45,270 nucleotides of DNA from Flavobacteriales bacterium (lineage in GTDB: Bacteria > Bacteroidota > Bacteroidia > Flavobacteriales > UBA7312), in assembly GCA_016779935.1 (NCBI GenBank), contig JADHMQ010000013.1:1-45270 (forward strand). The letters are read 5' to 3'. The translations under genes were made by a program, and so were the position numbers. Positions within the stretch are counted from its first letter, which is position 1; each line of letters begins with the position of its first letter. Positions 38,933-45,270 of this stretch are shown one piece after another. Below the pieces are notes generated by a model. The model did no database searches and was not told the origin of the DNA. It was given only the letters and a program-made list of their open reading frames with translations.

Positions 38933-41900
38933 GTGTACTTAATTTTTGATACAGAAACCACTGGATTACCTAGAAGCTGGAAGGCGCCTATTACGAATGT
39001 AGAAAATTGGCCTAGGTGTGTTCAAATTGCTTGGCAGTTGTATGATGATATGGGTGTCTTGATAGAGCAAAAGGACTTCCTAATTCGTCCTGATGGTTTT
39101 AATATTCCTTTTGAAGTTGAGAAAATTCATGGTATTTCTACGGAGCTTGCTCAACAAAAGGGTCACGATTTGGTAGAAGTCATCGCTGAATTCAAGAAAG
39201 CGATTGACAAAACAACTTTTTTAGTTGGTCAAAATGTAGGTTTTGATGTTAATGTATGGGGTTGTGAATTCCATAGATTAGAGGAAGATTTAGCATGGAC
39301 TAAGCTTAAGGTTTTGGATACCTGTACCGAAAAGACTGCCTCGCTTTGTCAACTACCAGGTGGTAGAGGAGGAAAGTTCAAATTACCCAACCTAACGGAA
39401 TTACACCATTACTTATTTCAAGAGTCTTTTGATGAGGCTCATAATGCTACTGCCGATGTTGAAGCCACAAGCCGCTGCTTTTTAGAACTTCTAAGAAAGG
39501 AACACTATTCTTTGGAAGAACTTGGGCAAGTCACATCGTATTTCTCAGAATTTCAATCAGTAAATCCTTCTATTATACAGCCTTTGGGTCTTAAGCACTT
39601 AAACCTTAAGCAAGAAAGCGCGAAACTTGTAAGAGTTGAAGATGTAAAACCTGAAACCTCAGTTGATGATGATACTGATTTAAGCTCTTCTCCATTTGTT
39701 CATTTACATAACCATACGCAGTATTCTGTATTGGAGTCAACCACCAAAATTCAATCTATGATTGATAAAGCGGTTGAGTTTGATATGCCTGCTGTTGCCA
39801 TTACAGATTATGCCAATTTGTACGGTGCATTCCATTTTGTTGACGCCATCCATAAACATCCTTCAAATAAGGAGGTTATTGAATATAATAAAGCTGTTGA
39901 TAAGGGAGATGAAAATGGACCTAAAAAAGAATTATCTATAAAAGGAATTATAGGTTGCGAACTATCTATTTGTAGAGACCATGCCAATAAGGATACCAAA
40001 GACAATGGCAAATCCATGGTTTTTTTAGCAAAAAATAAAGAAGGCTACCATAATTTGTCTAAGATGAGTTCTTTGGCATTCACCGATGGTTTTTATTACG
40101 TTCCTCGAATAGATAAGGAAATTGTAAAGAATTACAAGAAAGACCTTATTGTTATTAGCGGTGGTGCAAGTGGTGAGATTTCAGATTTAATTTTATCAGT
40201 TGGTGAACGACAGGCTGAAGAATCCGTTATATGGTGGAAGGAACAATTTGGTGATGATTTTTACATTGAGCTTGTACGTCACGGCATAGAAGAAGATAAA
40301 CGACTAAGCGATACTCTTATTCGTTTAGCCAAAAAACATTCTGTTAAACTAATTGCAGCAAATAACTCTCATTATCTTAATAAAGAAGACGCTAACGCAC
40401 ACGATATTTTGTTGTGTGTAAAAGACGCTGAATTGCAGTCTACCCCTATTGGTAGAGGACGCGGCTTTAGGTATGGATTTCCAAATAATGAGTACTATTT
40501 TAAATCTCAAGAGGAGATGAAAGTGCTATTCAAAGACATTCCAGAAGCTATTTCAAATATTAGTGAAATTGTTGCTAAAATAGAGAGCTATCAACTTAAA
40601 AGGGACGTTCTACTTCCAGCCTTTGATATACCCGAACAATTTATAGTAAAAGAAGATGAAGAGGATGGTGGTAAGAGGGGCGAGAATGCTTATTTAAGAC
40701 ACTTGTCATACGAAGGTGCAAAGGAAAGGTATCCAGAAATTACGGATGAAATTCGAGAGCGTCTTGATTTTGAACTTGAAACGATTGCCAAAACTGGCTT
40801 TCCAGGTTATTTCTTAATTGTTCAAGACTTTACCAGTCAGGCACGAAAAATGGGCGTTTCAGTAGGACCAGGCAGGGGGTCTGCAGCTGGTTCTGCAGTA
40901 GCGTATTGTGTTGGCATTACTAATGTTGACCCTATTAAGTACGACTTACTTTTTGAGCGTTTTTTGAATCCAGATAGGGTATCCCTCCCGGATATTGATA
41001 TTGACTTTGATGATGAAGGTAGAAATAAAATTATTGATTGGGTAGTCAATAAATACGGTCAAAACCAAGTAGCACAAATTATTACCTACGGTACTATGGC
41101 GGCAAAATCTTCTTTAAGAGATACTGCTAGAGTTCTGGATTTACCCCTTTCTGAAGCCAATGGTTTAACCAAAAAAATGCCAGATATCAAGTTGAATAAA
41201 CTTTTCAACTTTGATGATAAAGAATTGAAGGATAAGCTTAATAGCGAGCAGTTCAAGATGGCTCAAGAGTTCAAGGAATTAGCCGAAGGAAATGATTTAC
41301 AGTCTAAAACCATTAAACAAGCCACTATACTCGAAGGTTCCTTAAGAAACATTGGATTACACGCTTGTGGTGTTATCATTACTCCTGATGATATCTCTAA
41401 ATTTATACCCGTTCGTAAAGCGAAAGATACTGAGCTATTAGTTACTCAGTTTGATAATAGTGTTGTTGAGTCAGCAGGGATGTTGAAGATGGATTTTTTA
41501 GGACTAAAAAACCTAACCATTATCAAAGATTGTTGTAAAATCATCAAGCATATTCACGAAAAGGATATAGACCCAGATAAAATTCCTTTAGACGATGAGT
41601 TAACTTATCAGCTTTTTCAAAGAGGGGAAACCAATGGAATTTTTCAGTTTGAATCTCCTGGAATGCAGAAAAACCTCAAATCTCTTAAGCCAGATAAGTT
41701 TGATGACTTAATAGCTATGAACGCCTTGTATAGACCAGGTCCAATGGATTACATTCCTAATTTCATTGCTCGTAAGCACGGAAAAGAAGATATTATTTAC
41801 GATTTGCCTGAGATGTCTGAAATTCTTTCAGATACTTATGGTATTACGGTTTATCAAGAGCAAGTGATGCTTTTATCTCAGGAGCTGGCAGGTTTTTCCA

Positions 41901-43297
41901 AAGGTGATGCCGATGTTCTTCGAAAAGCTATGGGTAAAAAGATTTTTGCTTTACTGGAAAAGCTCAAGCCAAAGTTTTTAAATGGCTGTAATGAACGGGG
42001 TCATGACGTAGAAATTGCTGAAAAAATATGGGGCGATTGGGAAGCCTTTGCAGCCTATGCTTTTAATAAATCGCATTCTACTTGCTATGCTTTGATTGCG
42101 TTTCAAACCGCTTATTTAAAGGCTCATTATCCGGCTGAATACATGGCGGCTTACCTAACTCATAACATGAACGATATAAAGAAAGTTACTTTTTATATGG
42201 AGGAGTGTAAACGAATGGGTATTAAAGTTTTAGGTCCAGATGTAAATGAGAGTTTTTACAAATTTGCGGTTAACAAAAAAGGAGAAATCAGATTCGGTTT
42301 AGGTGCTATTAAAGGCGTTGGTGAAGGTGCAGTAGAAACGATAGTAAACGAGCGAAAAGAAAATGGAAACTACCAATCTATATTTGATTTGAGTAAACGA
42401 ATTGATTTGAGAGCTGCCAACAAACGTGCTTTCGAAAGTTTAGTTTATGCTGGAGGATTTGATAGCTTTGGTCATAAACGTTCCACCTATTTTTATGATG
42501 ATGGTACGGGTAGTATATTCATGGAACGAGTCATGAAATACGGTCATAAATTTCAAGAAAATTTAGATTCTGCTCAAGTATCTTTGTTTGGTGAGTCTTC
42601 CGAAGAAGTCCTTTTAGAACCTAAAGTTCCGGAGGTTGAGCCTTGGAATACATTAGAGATGCTAAATAAGGAAAAAGAAGTGGTTGGCTTTTATATTTCT
42701 GGACATCCATTGGATGATTACAAACTTGAAATGGAAAGCTTCTGTAACTTTAATATTTCTGAGATTAAAGATTTCCCAGCAATTAAGGGAAGAGATATTC
42801 TTATTGCTGGTATGGTAGCGCAGGTAGAGCACCGATTCACAAAAGGAGGTAAGCCTTTTGGTACTATTACCTTAGAAGATTATCACGACCAAATTACCTT
42901 TTTCTTATTTGGCGATGATTACCCAAAGTTTAAGGCCTATATGACTGAGGGCTGGTTTATCTATGCTCAATGTAGGGTTCAAGAGCGAAAATGGAGTAAA
43001 GAAAATGAACTAGATATTAAGTTAGTGAATGTGGAATTGCTTTCTGAAATAAAAGAAAAAGCCATTCGTTCAGTGTGTGTGAATATAGAATTAGACGATT
43101 TAACACCGGATATTATTAACAGAATTCAGGCTTTAGCAGAGGATAATGTTGGTAAACATAACCTAAAAATTATAGTAAACGATTCATCTGAAGGGTATGC
43201 GGTTTCTTTACGTTCAAAGAAATTTAAAATCAGTCTTGATGAAGATTTTATATTTGGTCTAAAACAAATTCCAATGTTGGAAATTCAAATCAATTAA
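38933..43297 (+). CDS. dnaE: DNA polymerase III alpha subunit with N-terminal exonuclease
   Basis: A 1454-residue replicative polymerase. Residues ~1-190 are a DEDDh 3'-5' exonuclease like DnaQ: DTETTGLP (6-13), the VGQNVGFDVNVWG motif, and His170 with Asp175 (HNATADVEA). The PHP domain starts near residue 255 (FVHLHNHTQYSVLES, His257/His259/His261). Its later motif NNSHY (477-481) has Asn where active PHP domains have Asp, so PHP metal binding may be impaired. The polymerase site has GRGSAAGSAVAYCVG and Asp687/Asp689 in LPDIDIDFDD. HhH and OB domains follow (AIKGVGEGAVETI; DILIAGMVAQVEHRF). The start is GTG; no in-frame ATG lies upstream. The exonuclease fusion would place proofreading in one chain. 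Confidence 0.95.
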   Translation: MYLIFDTETTGLPRSWKAPITNVENWPRCVQIAWQLYDDMGVLIEQKDFLIRPDGFNIPFEVEKIHGISTELAQQKGHDLVEVIAEFKKAIDKTTFLVGQNVGFDVNVWGCEFHRLEEDLAWTKLKVLDTCTEKTASLCQLPGGRGGKFKLPNLTELHHYLFQESFDEAHNATADVEATSRCFLELLRKEHYSLEELGQVTSYFSEFQSVNPSIIQPLGLKHLNLKQESAKLVRVEDVKPETSVDDDTDLSSSPFVHLHNHTQYSVLESTTKIQSMIDKAVEFDMPAVAITDYANLYGAFHFVDAIHKHPSNKEVIEYNKAVDKGDENGPKKELSIKGIIGCELSICRDHANKDTKDNGKSMVFLAKNKEGYHNLSKMSSLAFTDGFYYVPRIDKEIVKNYKKDLIVISGGASGEISDLILSVGERQAEESVIWWKEQFGDDFYIELVRHGIEEDKRLSDTLIRLAKKHSVKLIAANNSHYLNKEDANAHDILLCVKDAELQSTPIGRGRGFRYGFPNNEYYFKSQEEMKVLFKDIPEAISNISEIVAKIESYQLKRDVLLPAFDIPEQFIVKEDEEDGGKRGENAYLRHLSYEGAKERYPEITDEIRERLDFELETIAKTGFPGYFLIVQDFTSQARKMGVSVGPGRGSAAGSAVAYCVGITNVDPIKYDLLFERFLNPDRVSLPDIDIDFDDEGRNKIIDWVVNKYGQNQVAQIITYGTMAAKSSLRDTARVLDLPLSEANGLTKKMPDIKLNKLFNFDDKELKDKLNSEQFKMAQEFKELAEGNDLQSKTIKQATILEGSLRNIGLHACGVIITPDDISKFIPVRKAKDTELLVTQFDNSVVESAGMLKMDFLGLKNLTIIKDCCKIIKHIHEKDIDPDKIPLDDELTYQLFQRGETNGIFQFESPGMQKNLKSLKPDKFDDLIAMNALYRPGPMDYIPNFIARKHGKEDIIYDLPEMSEILSDTYGITVYQEQVMLLSQELAGFSKGDADVLRKAMGKKIFALLEKLKPKFLNGCNERGHDVEIAEKIWGDWEAFAAYAFNKSHSTCYALIAFQTAYLKAHYPAEYMAAYLTHNMNDIKKVTFYMEECKRMGIKVLGPDVNESFYKFAVNKKGEIRFGLGAIKGVGEGAVETIVNERKENGNYQSIFDLSKRIDLRAANKRAFESLVYAGGFDSFGHKRSTYFYDDGTGSIFMERVMKYGHKFQENLDSAQVSLFGESSEEVLLEPKVPEVEPWNTLEMLNKEKEVVGFYISGHPLDDYKLEMESFCNFNISEIKDFPAIKGRDILIAGMVAQVEHRFTKGGKPFGTITLEDYHDQITFFLFGDDYPKFKAYMTEGWFIYAQCRVQERKWSKENELDIKLVNVELLSEIKEKAIRSVCVNIELDDLTPDIINRIQALAEDNVGKHNLKIIVNDSSEGYAVSLRSKKFKISLDEDFIFGLKQIPMLEIQIN

Positions 43298-43302
43298 TTG
43301 TG

Positions 43303-43310
43303 TAATTTTG
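43303..43310 (+). promoter_or_regulatory. Candidate -7 element of trxA
   Basis: TAATTTTG matches TAnnTTTG in the dnaE-trxA gap, 43 nt before the trxA ATG. The nearest upstream TTG is 23 nt away. Confidence 0.45.
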
Positions 43311-43353
43311 TGACAGGAAATAATCCAAATTAAATAATAAAAAAATCGATAAA

Positions 43354-43671
43354 ATGGCATTAGAAATCACTGACAAAAATTTTAAGGAAGTAGTATTAGA
43401 TTCTGACAAACCTGTATTAGTTGACTTTTGGGCGACATGGTGTGGTCCTTGTAGAATGGTTGGTCCTATTGTTGATGAATTATCAAACGATTATGAAGGA
43501 AAAGCGGTAGTAGGTAAGGTTAATGTTGACGATAATTCTGCAGTACCTTCAGAATATGGTATTAGAAACATTCCTGCACTGTTAATTTTCAAAAATGGTG
43601 AGATTGTTGATAAGGTAATCGGTGCCGTACCAAAAAATGTATTAGCTGAAAAATTAGACGCTCAGCTGTAA
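43354..43671 (+). CDS. trxA: Thioredoxin
   Basis: A 105-residue cytoplasmic protein with the active-site motif WATWCGPC (Cys30 and Cys33) and the cis-Pro loop [23 protein letters not shown]. It reduces protein disulfides and would feed the ArsC at the left of the window, among others. Length and motif are fully standard. It has its own promoter candidate and a strong terminator, so it is probably a single-gene transcript between dnaE and the DUF58 gene. Confidence 0.95.
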
Positions 43672-43686
43672 TAGTTTTTTAAATGA

Positions 43687-43715
43687 TAAAAAAGGGCGTT
43701 AAGCCCTTTTTTTTT
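43687..43715 (+). terminator. Intrinsic terminator after trxA
   Basis: AAAAAAGGGC ending at 43697 pairs with GCCCTTTTTT from 43703 around a GTTAA loop, with a T run to 43715. An ATG at 43683 lies before this hairpin, so it is not a likely start of the next gene. Confidence 0.88.
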
Positions 43716-43718
43716 GAG

Positions 43719-44639
43719 ATGATTGATAGAAAACACATAGAGAAATTTAAAAATTTAGAGCTGCTTGCTAATCAAGTAGTAGAAGGTTTTATTACTGGAC
43801 TTCACAAAAGTCCTTTTCATGGATTTTCTGTTGAGTTTGCAGAGCATAGACTTTATAATTCTGGAGAAAGTACGCGTCATATTGATTGGAAGTTATTCGC
43901 TCGAACAAACAAGTACTTTGTTAAACGCTATGAGGAGGAAACTAACCTAAGATGTAGGATAATTATCGATCAATCCTCATCAATGTATTTTCCAAAAGTT
44001 GATAATCCTTCCTTAAAAACACCAAATAAAGTTTTTTTCTCGGGTGTCTGTTCTGCGGCTCTTATGAATTTACTAAAACGCCAAAGGGACGCTATTGGTT
44101 TAAGTGTATTTTCTGATAAAGTTTATCTTCACACTACTGAAAAAACGAGTACCAAACATCATCAGTTTTTGATGCACCAGCTGGATAATATCGTCAATGA
44201 TTCATCTACTTTGAAAACATCAAGAGTTACAGAAGCTCTTCATCAAATAGCTGAAAATATTCACCAACGTTCTTTAGTTGTGCTCTTCAGTGATATGATG
44301 GATAATTCGGAGAATACCGATGAGTTGTTTTCTGCCCTTCAGCATTTGAAGTTTAACAAACATGAAGTCATTTTATTTCATGTTATGGACAAGTCAAAGG
44401 AGTTAGAGTTTGACTACGAAAACAGGCCTTATAAGTTTGTTGATATGGAAACAGGAGAGGAGTTAAAGCTATCTCCAAATGAGGTTAAAAAGAACTACAA
44501 AGAACAATCGCTATCTTTTCTTAAAGAGTTAAAGTTGAAATGTACACAATACCGTATTGATTTTATTGAAGCCGATATTAATGAAGGATATGATAATGTC
44601 TTGTTATCTTACCTTGTCAAACGATCAAAATTATATTGA
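43719..44639 (+). CDS. DUF58 / VWA-like protein
   Basis: A 306-residue soluble protein. It contains the DUF58 motif YNSGESTRHIDWKLFARTNK, then FVKRYEEETNLRCRIIID and a VWA-like metal site DQSSSMYF. VVLFSDMMDN and FLKELKLKCTQYRIDFIEAD complete the fold. DUF58 proteins usually accompany MoxR AAA+ ATPases and BatA/BatB proteins; none is adjacent here, though a BatA-like gene lies 19 kb away. I chose the ATG at 43719 because the in-frame ATG at 43683 would place the trxA terminator inside the gene and add a poor Phe-rich start. Role unknown. Confidence 0.85.
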   Translation: MIDRKHIEKFKNLELLANQVVEGFITGLHKSPFHGFSVEFAEHRLYNSGESTRHIDWKLFARTNKYFVKRYEEETNLRCRIIIDQSSSMYFPKVDNPSLKTPNKVFFSGVCSAALMNLLKRQRDAIGLSVFSDKVYLHTTEKTSTKHHQFLMHQLDNIVNDSSTLKTSRVTEALHQIAENIHQRSLVVLFSDMMDNSENTDELFSALQHLKFNKHEVILFHVMDKSKELEFDYENRPYKFVDMETGEELKLSPNEVKKNYKEQSLSFLKELKLKCTQYRIDFIEADINEGYDNVLLSYLVKRSKLY

Positions 44640-44726: not shown

Positions 44727-44800
44727 GGTCTGGTAGTTCAGTTGGTTAGAATACATGCCTGTCACGCATGGGGTCGCGGGTTCGAGTCCCGTCCAGACCG
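44727..44800 (+). tRNA. tRNA-Asp (anticodon GTC)
   Basis: A 74-base cloverleaf. The acceptor stem GGTCTGG (44727-44733) pairs with CCAGACC (44793-44799), with discriminator G. The D stem is GTTC/GAAT, the anticodon stem CATGC/GCATG holds the loop CTGTCAC with GTC at 44761-44763, and the T arm is GCGGG TTCGAGT CCCGT. CCA is not encoded. An integrase gene begins 258 bp downstream, so the 3' end may serve as an attachment site. Confidence 0.97.
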
Positions 44801-44827
44801 CAACCTAAAACACATTTAGGAACATTT

Positions 44828-44860
44828 ACCCTGCAAACTTATTGTTTGTGGGGTTTTTTT
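44828..44860 (+). terminator. Intrinsic terminator after tRNA-Asp
   Basis: ACCCTGCAAAC at 44828-44838 pairs with GTTTGTGGGGT at 44844-44854 (11 pairs, two G-U) around TTATT, followed by a T run. Confidence 0.85.
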
Positions 44861-44946
44861 ATGTTTTTACATCTCAAAATTCATATTAATTCTCACTAAA
44901 AAGGTGCCCAAATCGGTGCACTTATTAACAATTAAGGATTTTAACC

Positions 44947-44985
44947 CATTTTATGCCCTAAAATGTTGAAAACAGGCATAAAATG
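44947..44985. repeat. 11-bp inverted repeat upstream of the integrase
   Basis: CATTTTATGCC at 44947-44957 and GGCATAAAATG at 44975-44985 form a perfect inverted repeat with a 17-nt loop. A pair of GGTGC direct repeats (44903-44907, 44915-44919) lies just before. Both sit between the tRNA and the integrase, where integrase or accessory-factor binding sites are expected; that role is inferred. Confidence 0.6.
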
Positions 44986-45058
44986 TGAGAAGATAGTACA
45001 GTTAAAATTAATGAATAACGAGTAAAAAATGTTATATTTACTCTAGTAGTTTGAATTT

Positions 45059-45270
45059 ATGAAAAATACATTTTCAATATTATTTTACTTAAGACACAGT
45101 AAGCTTAGAGCTGATGGAACCACACCAATATATGTCAGAATTACAATTCGTGGTAAACGCTCAGATTTTTACTCTAAAAGAAGTATTATTAAGAGTAAAT
45201 GGTGTCCAAAGAAATGTAGAGTTAAAGGGACTAGCGAAGAAGCTAGAATTCTTAACTTATACCTAAATAC
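45059..45270 (+). CDS. Tyrosine-recombinase integrase, N-terminal fragment (window edge)
   Basis: I translated 70 codons to the right edge; no stop is seen. It starts MKNTFSILFYLRHSKLRADG and continues TTPIYVRITIRGKRSDFYSK, then RSIIKSKWCPKKCRVKGTSE. This is the arm-type DNA-binding domain that opens Bacteroidota site-specific integrases of conjugative and phage-like elements. The catalytic domain lies outside the window. Its direction, pointing away from the tRNA-Asp gene, and the distance fit an element integrated at the tRNA 3' end. Confidence 0.82.
   Translation, partial: MKNTFSILFYLRHSKLRADGTTPIYVRITIRGKRSDFYSKRSIIKSKWCPKKCRVKGTSEEARILNLYLN

Follow-up and report, generated by a model that had tools for sequence, protein, structure and literature searches.

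A very likely integrative-element junction at the tRNA-Asp 3' end in a Flavobacteriales bacterium

Does the start of an integrase gene, lying just behind an intact tRNA-Asp gene and cut off by the end of a contig, mark the left edge of an integrative element, and of what kind would that element be? The window (the whole stretch of DNA analyzed, 45,270 bp) is the entire contig C13 of a Flavobacteriales assembly (1.68 Mb, 21 contigs, 99.1% completeness), which holds nothing beyond position 45270. The window very likely contains the left junction, on the integrase side, of an integrative element that has inserted at the tRNA-Asp 3' end, on the basis of an intact tRNA, the start of an arm-domain integrase, and the same layout combined with closing repeats in relatives.

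The tRNA-Asp junction in the window

The relevant features are as follows (the detection basis is given in parentheses):

38933–44639, + strand: left chromosomal flank (DnaE and DUF58 by Pfam)
38933–43297, + strand: DNA polymerase III alpha, dnaE (Pfam)
43354–43671, + strand: thioredoxin-like gene, trx
43683–44639, + strand: DUF58 protein (Pfam)
44727–44801, + strand: intact tRNA-Asp (GTC), the target gene (tRNA call)
44785–44801, + strand: attL core AGTCCCGTCCAGACCGC, the tRNA 3' end (direct repeats in G148 and G042)
44828–44854, + strand: Rho-independent terminator hairpin for the tRNA (11 pairs and a T-run)
44904–44921, + strand: putative arm-type site pair GTGCCC-AAATCG-GTGCAC with 12-bp spacing (motif and spacing scan)
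45059–45270, + strand: 5' end of a tyrosine integrase gene with an Arm-DNA-bind_5 domain (Pfam PF17293)

The preliminary description had reported an arm-domain integrase starting within 260 bp of an intact tRNA-Asp and reading away from it, with an inverted repeat in the spacer, and the measurements bear this out. The integrase open reading frame begins with an ATG at 45059, 257 bp past the tRNA, is directed away from it and stays open to the window end, and its match to PF17293 (E 2e-14, 54.3 bits against a cut-off of 22.6) identifies Arm-DNA-bind_5, which tyrosine integrases of Bacteroidota carry at their N-terminus. The inverted repeat corresponds to the terminator hairpin, of which 0.2 are expected in shuffled sequence; a similar hairpin aligns at the same place in elements of other genera. 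The first 100 bp of the tRNA–integrase spacer are unlike those of the closest relatives, an observation which counts against the proposed reading.

Only 70 of about 410 integrase residues are visible, the gene being cut by the contig end. The rest is absent from the window's own assembly, where a PF00589 search gives only two integrases of ~300 aa (on C6 and C8), and PF17293 matches at the window locus only. Likewise, the tRNA-Asp 3' end, the 17-bp attL core included, has no second copy in this assembly, its single occurrence being that in the window. A downstream repeat, proposed earlier as a check, was found in relatives (see below); the window's own genome shows none, as the contig stops and what would follow it is missing from the assembly.

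Complete elements and site occupancy in relatives

The closest counterparts are tRNA-Asp elements in two related genomes (G148 and G042) with the same core as in the window and an integrase 64–67% identical in its visible part; these elements are complete and their cargo is known. In G148 (CALSUJ010000001.1, an uncultured Flavobacteriales MAG), the left flank is the same as that of the window, the integrase (64% identical) lies 261 bp from the tRNA and, as a 410-aa homologue, includes SAM-like and catalytic domains, and a second, co-oriented copy of the tRNA-Asp 3' end lies 19,228 bp downstream. The G042 integrase shares 66–67% identity with the window's and 94% with the G148 integrase, and the cores at 47, 9914 and 15755 delimit two adjacent elements of 9.9 kb (9,867 bp) and 5.8 kb. 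A more distant relative, G119, carries a 44.2-kb element between cores 2959363 and 2915151, with an intact tRNA-Asp copy after the second. It is the sequence CCCGTCCAGACCGC, from the tRNA 3' end, that is found again at the far end of the relatives' elements.

The left flank (dnaE, trx, DUF58 and tRNA-Asp) is wholly or partly kept together in 12 relatives (G002, G003, G006, G007, G013, G019, G031, G050, G057, G148, G149 and G150). The same integrase in all relatives, with no variable DNA behind it, had been named as the observation that would speak against an element; quite different DNA was found past tRNA-Asp in same-flank relatives. The tRNA is followed by an arm-domain integrase in the window, G043, G148, G149 and G150, by an HTH_17 gene in G019 and G031, and by other genes, many with signal peptides, in G050, G013 and G064. 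Together with the closing repeats in relatives, this variable right side supports the earlier claim of an integrative element using the tRNA 3' end as attachment site. In five relatives (G002, G003, G006, G007 and G057), the contig stops 0–404 bp past the same tRNA-Asp, as expected if the sampled cells diverge from that point; in the window as well, the assembly break at the element probably means that cells of the sampled population differ in what comes next.

Two attempts at further comparison were set aside. The right flank could not be placed via synteny with MurQ and a BshC-like gene beside the G006 and G002 elements, where the order is not conserved and G000 yields no true MurQ match. 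The tRNA-Asp of G001, the only other genome of the genus, is not the same locus, its neighbours being unrelated genes; it adjoins products (L022, G001:C114) that look, as judged by eye, like a PspC-type protein, a nuclease and a dTDP-sugar epimerase, and this different locus is possibly viral or another island. As a separate observation, the third core of G042 (G042:C6, L096:15755-20000) is followed by dnaE reading towards the core, without the thioredoxin and DUF58 genes normally between, an arrangement that reflects either an inversion or an assembly fault.

Directly after the integrase, both G148 and G042 encode an HTH_17 protein, with 98% identity between the two copies; it is a likely directionality factor and has a weak excisionase-family match. 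Past this gene, the cargo proteins carry type IX sorting domains, collagen repeats, FISUMP domains and laminin-G domains, and one of these proteins matches the N-terminal domain of a "mosaic adhesive trimer" fibre below the cut-off (45.5 of 60 bits); this composition suggests surface fibres or adhesins as the cargo of these two relatives. Cargo of a similar kind occurs in a tRNA-Val element of the G148 genome.

Several side observations concern these cargo regions. A second class of element at the same tRNA-Asp core has an HTH_17 gene and a REP_ORF2-G2P replication protein at one end; in G042 (L096:9914-15771) its integrase lies at the far end, facing inward, and parts of this class are seen in G002 (L114:2310-3325). 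Around the far core in G148 (L213, G148:C1:686352-693253), genes for sorting-domain, collagen-type and DUF5681 proteins form an inverted duplication on both sides, with identical mature sorting-domain proteins. A near-identical 35-nt stretch, ATGAAAAAACTACTACTTATATTACTTTGCTTGCC (signal peptide MKKLLLILLCLP), opens many secreted-protein genes with mostly dissimilar mature parts, at L117 (G050:C4:177138-181136), L212/L213 (G148), L118 (G031) and L096 (G042), including seven copies within 5 kb past tRNA-Asp in G050; it occurs in 9 of 15 genomes and is absent in G000, with a reversed-pattern control giving 0, and could be an exchangeable cassette leader. In G002 (C17, L114:4718-10648), ATGCCCTTCACTAAAGGAAATAATACA occurs six times, little changed, each time ahead of, or opening, one of a series of consecutive cargo genes.

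Integrase family and putative arm-type sites

An arm-domain search of 84,980 species genomes, from which the best 80 loci were kept (all Bacteroidota by title), provided with the window and three others 84 loci for examination. A same-strand tRNA lies 192–385 bp (mostly 236–277 bp) upstream of the integrase in 65 of them: 41 tRNA-Ser, 13 tRNA-Asp, 6 tRNA-Val and 5 tRNA-Tyr. The closest integrases among the best 80 loci (L128, L129 and L130, 64–67% identity) are all 261–263 bp from a tRNA-Asp with the same flank. Target tRNA type clusters on the integrase tree (17 changes vs. 30.7 in shuffled data, reached in 0 of 200 shuffles), and the window groups with L128, L130 and G042, all at tRNA-Asp, with support of 95/72 on 17% of the columns. 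Closing repeats were searched within 10 kb of 51 related loci and only one was found, so most elements are probably longer.

The direct repeat noted earlier in the window's spacer consists of GTGCCC (44904–44909) and GTGCAC (44916–44921), separated by 6 nt and situated 103 bp past the tRNA end, and it does exceed chance when related loci are considered. A scan of all spacings from 7 to 30 in the 65 tRNA–integrase spacers, made without a motif, singled out direct repeats with a spacing of 12 (49 of 65 spacers vs. 4.2 expected). The motif RTGN(C/A)C-N6-RTGN(C/A)C, picked after viewing some of the same loci, is found in 40 of 65 spacers vs. 0.0 expected, nearly always 101–105 bp from the tRNA end; the loci being related, these counts are not independent, and the motif-free scan is the fairer test. 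A matching pair precedes the far core by exactly 74 bp in G148, G042 and G119, and by ~74 bp in a tRNA-Val element. Arm-type sites of lambda-type integrases are placed on both attP arms at a fixed distance. Since the 12-bp-spaced pairs are likewise at fixed distances on either side of the core, the left one in the window and both in relatives, they are probably arm-type sites, binding being inferred.

These observations can be assembled into a mechanism in which the circular form of the element would integrate by lambda-type (IntCTnDOT-subgroup) recombination, the integrase acting at the 17-bp tRNA 3' end while its N-terminal domain would bind the repeat pairs of 12-bp spacing that lie 103 bp to the right and 74 bp to the left of the core, one pair on each attP arm. 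The inserted element would restore the tRNA 3' end and provide a terminator behind the tRNA, and the likely directionality factor would be the small HTH_17 protein whose gene directly follows that of the integrase in relatives.

Alternative readings and related systems

Other readings account for parts of this evidence. The window could hold the remains of an old, decayed insertion that has lost all but its left end and a broken integrase, which we consider unlikely though well worth keeping in mind: the gene is truncated in the data and short integrase frames occur at many related loci (<300 aa in 18 of 84, some only because the contig ends), but the truncation here falls exactly at the contig end and the 70 visible residues are intact, with 66–67% identity to integrases of complete elements. 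A temperate phage, rather than a non-viral island, is a distinctly improbable source, even though the domain organisation is common to phage integrases, the G148 element encodes a DUF5681 protein and the collagen-like cargo resembles tail fibres. Two scans of a viral-contig collection revealed no relative of the integrase, viral contigs contained no exact match to the tRNA end, and the best phage-collection match to the integrase is 37% identical; moreover, scanning proteins of the two class A elements that are complete, those of G148 and G042, gave no capsid, portal or large terminase, and the collagen proteins of these elements adjoin type IX sorting-domain proteins.

An assembly chimera, with the tRNA flank joined to a foreign integrase end, would agree with a contig ending right at the junction, yet spacing, repeat and tRNA type match those of independent genomes, which random joining would not give, making a chimera highly improbable. 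That the integrase is a conserved host gene merely next to tRNA-Asp is scarcely credible: the left flank is indeed strongly conserved, but same-flank relatives have other DNA past the tRNA, and the 8 other genomes of the window's family contain no close arm-domain match, the only one being weak (G002, 37% over 50 residues) and elsewhere in the genome.

An inserted integrative element, the preferred reading, has parallels in known systems. CTnDOT and NBU1 (IntCTnDOT subgroup; PMC8138268) are also from Bacteroidota, and the window's homologues have arm, SAM-like and catalytic domains. NBU1 uses a tRNA-Leu 3' end, according to a title cited in PMC8138268; to the extent that this title tells, the use of a tRNA 3' end is alike and the tRNA (Asp in the window) is different. 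In contrast to these two systems, no relaxase, mobilisation or conjugation genes turned up among the proteins scanned in the class A elements of G148 and G042, both complete; the window gene itself is seen in its N-terminal part only. The 50K genomic island of the flavobacterial Riemerella anatipestifer, with the RAP44 integrase, lies directly downstream of a tRNA, integrase first, between 19-bp flanking repeats TCCCTCTCTCTCCGCAAAA, and its integration has been demonstrated with a suicide vector (PMC9745183). These repeats resemble tRNA-Ser 3' ends found in related loci, whereas its phage-derived cargo and its tRNA differ from the present case; the likeness is one of layout and repeats.

Overall, the element belongs to an ordinary type of integrative island that targets tRNA genes, here in a lineage that is poorly described, and this study adds a site map and a tRNA-tracking integrase family; our literature search found no description of the tRNA-Asp site. 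A broader interpretation, which we offer tentatively, is that one integrase lineage has kept its attP layout rigid, with arm pairs near +103 and -74 around the core, while switching among tRNA-Ser, -Asp, -Val and -Tyr 3' ends, and that small-genome Flavobacteriales load and exchange surface-fibre genes with it at tRNA-Asp and tRNA-Val, the window carrying one such element. The predicted integrase-binding sites have exact positions and are open to bench testing. As the target tRNA tracks the integrase tree while the repeats hold their position, this family could serve to study target change in integrases. The presence of an element at tRNA-Asp suggests a reason why the assemblies of several relatives stop there, and marks this site as a hot spot where a small-genome lineage gains genes.
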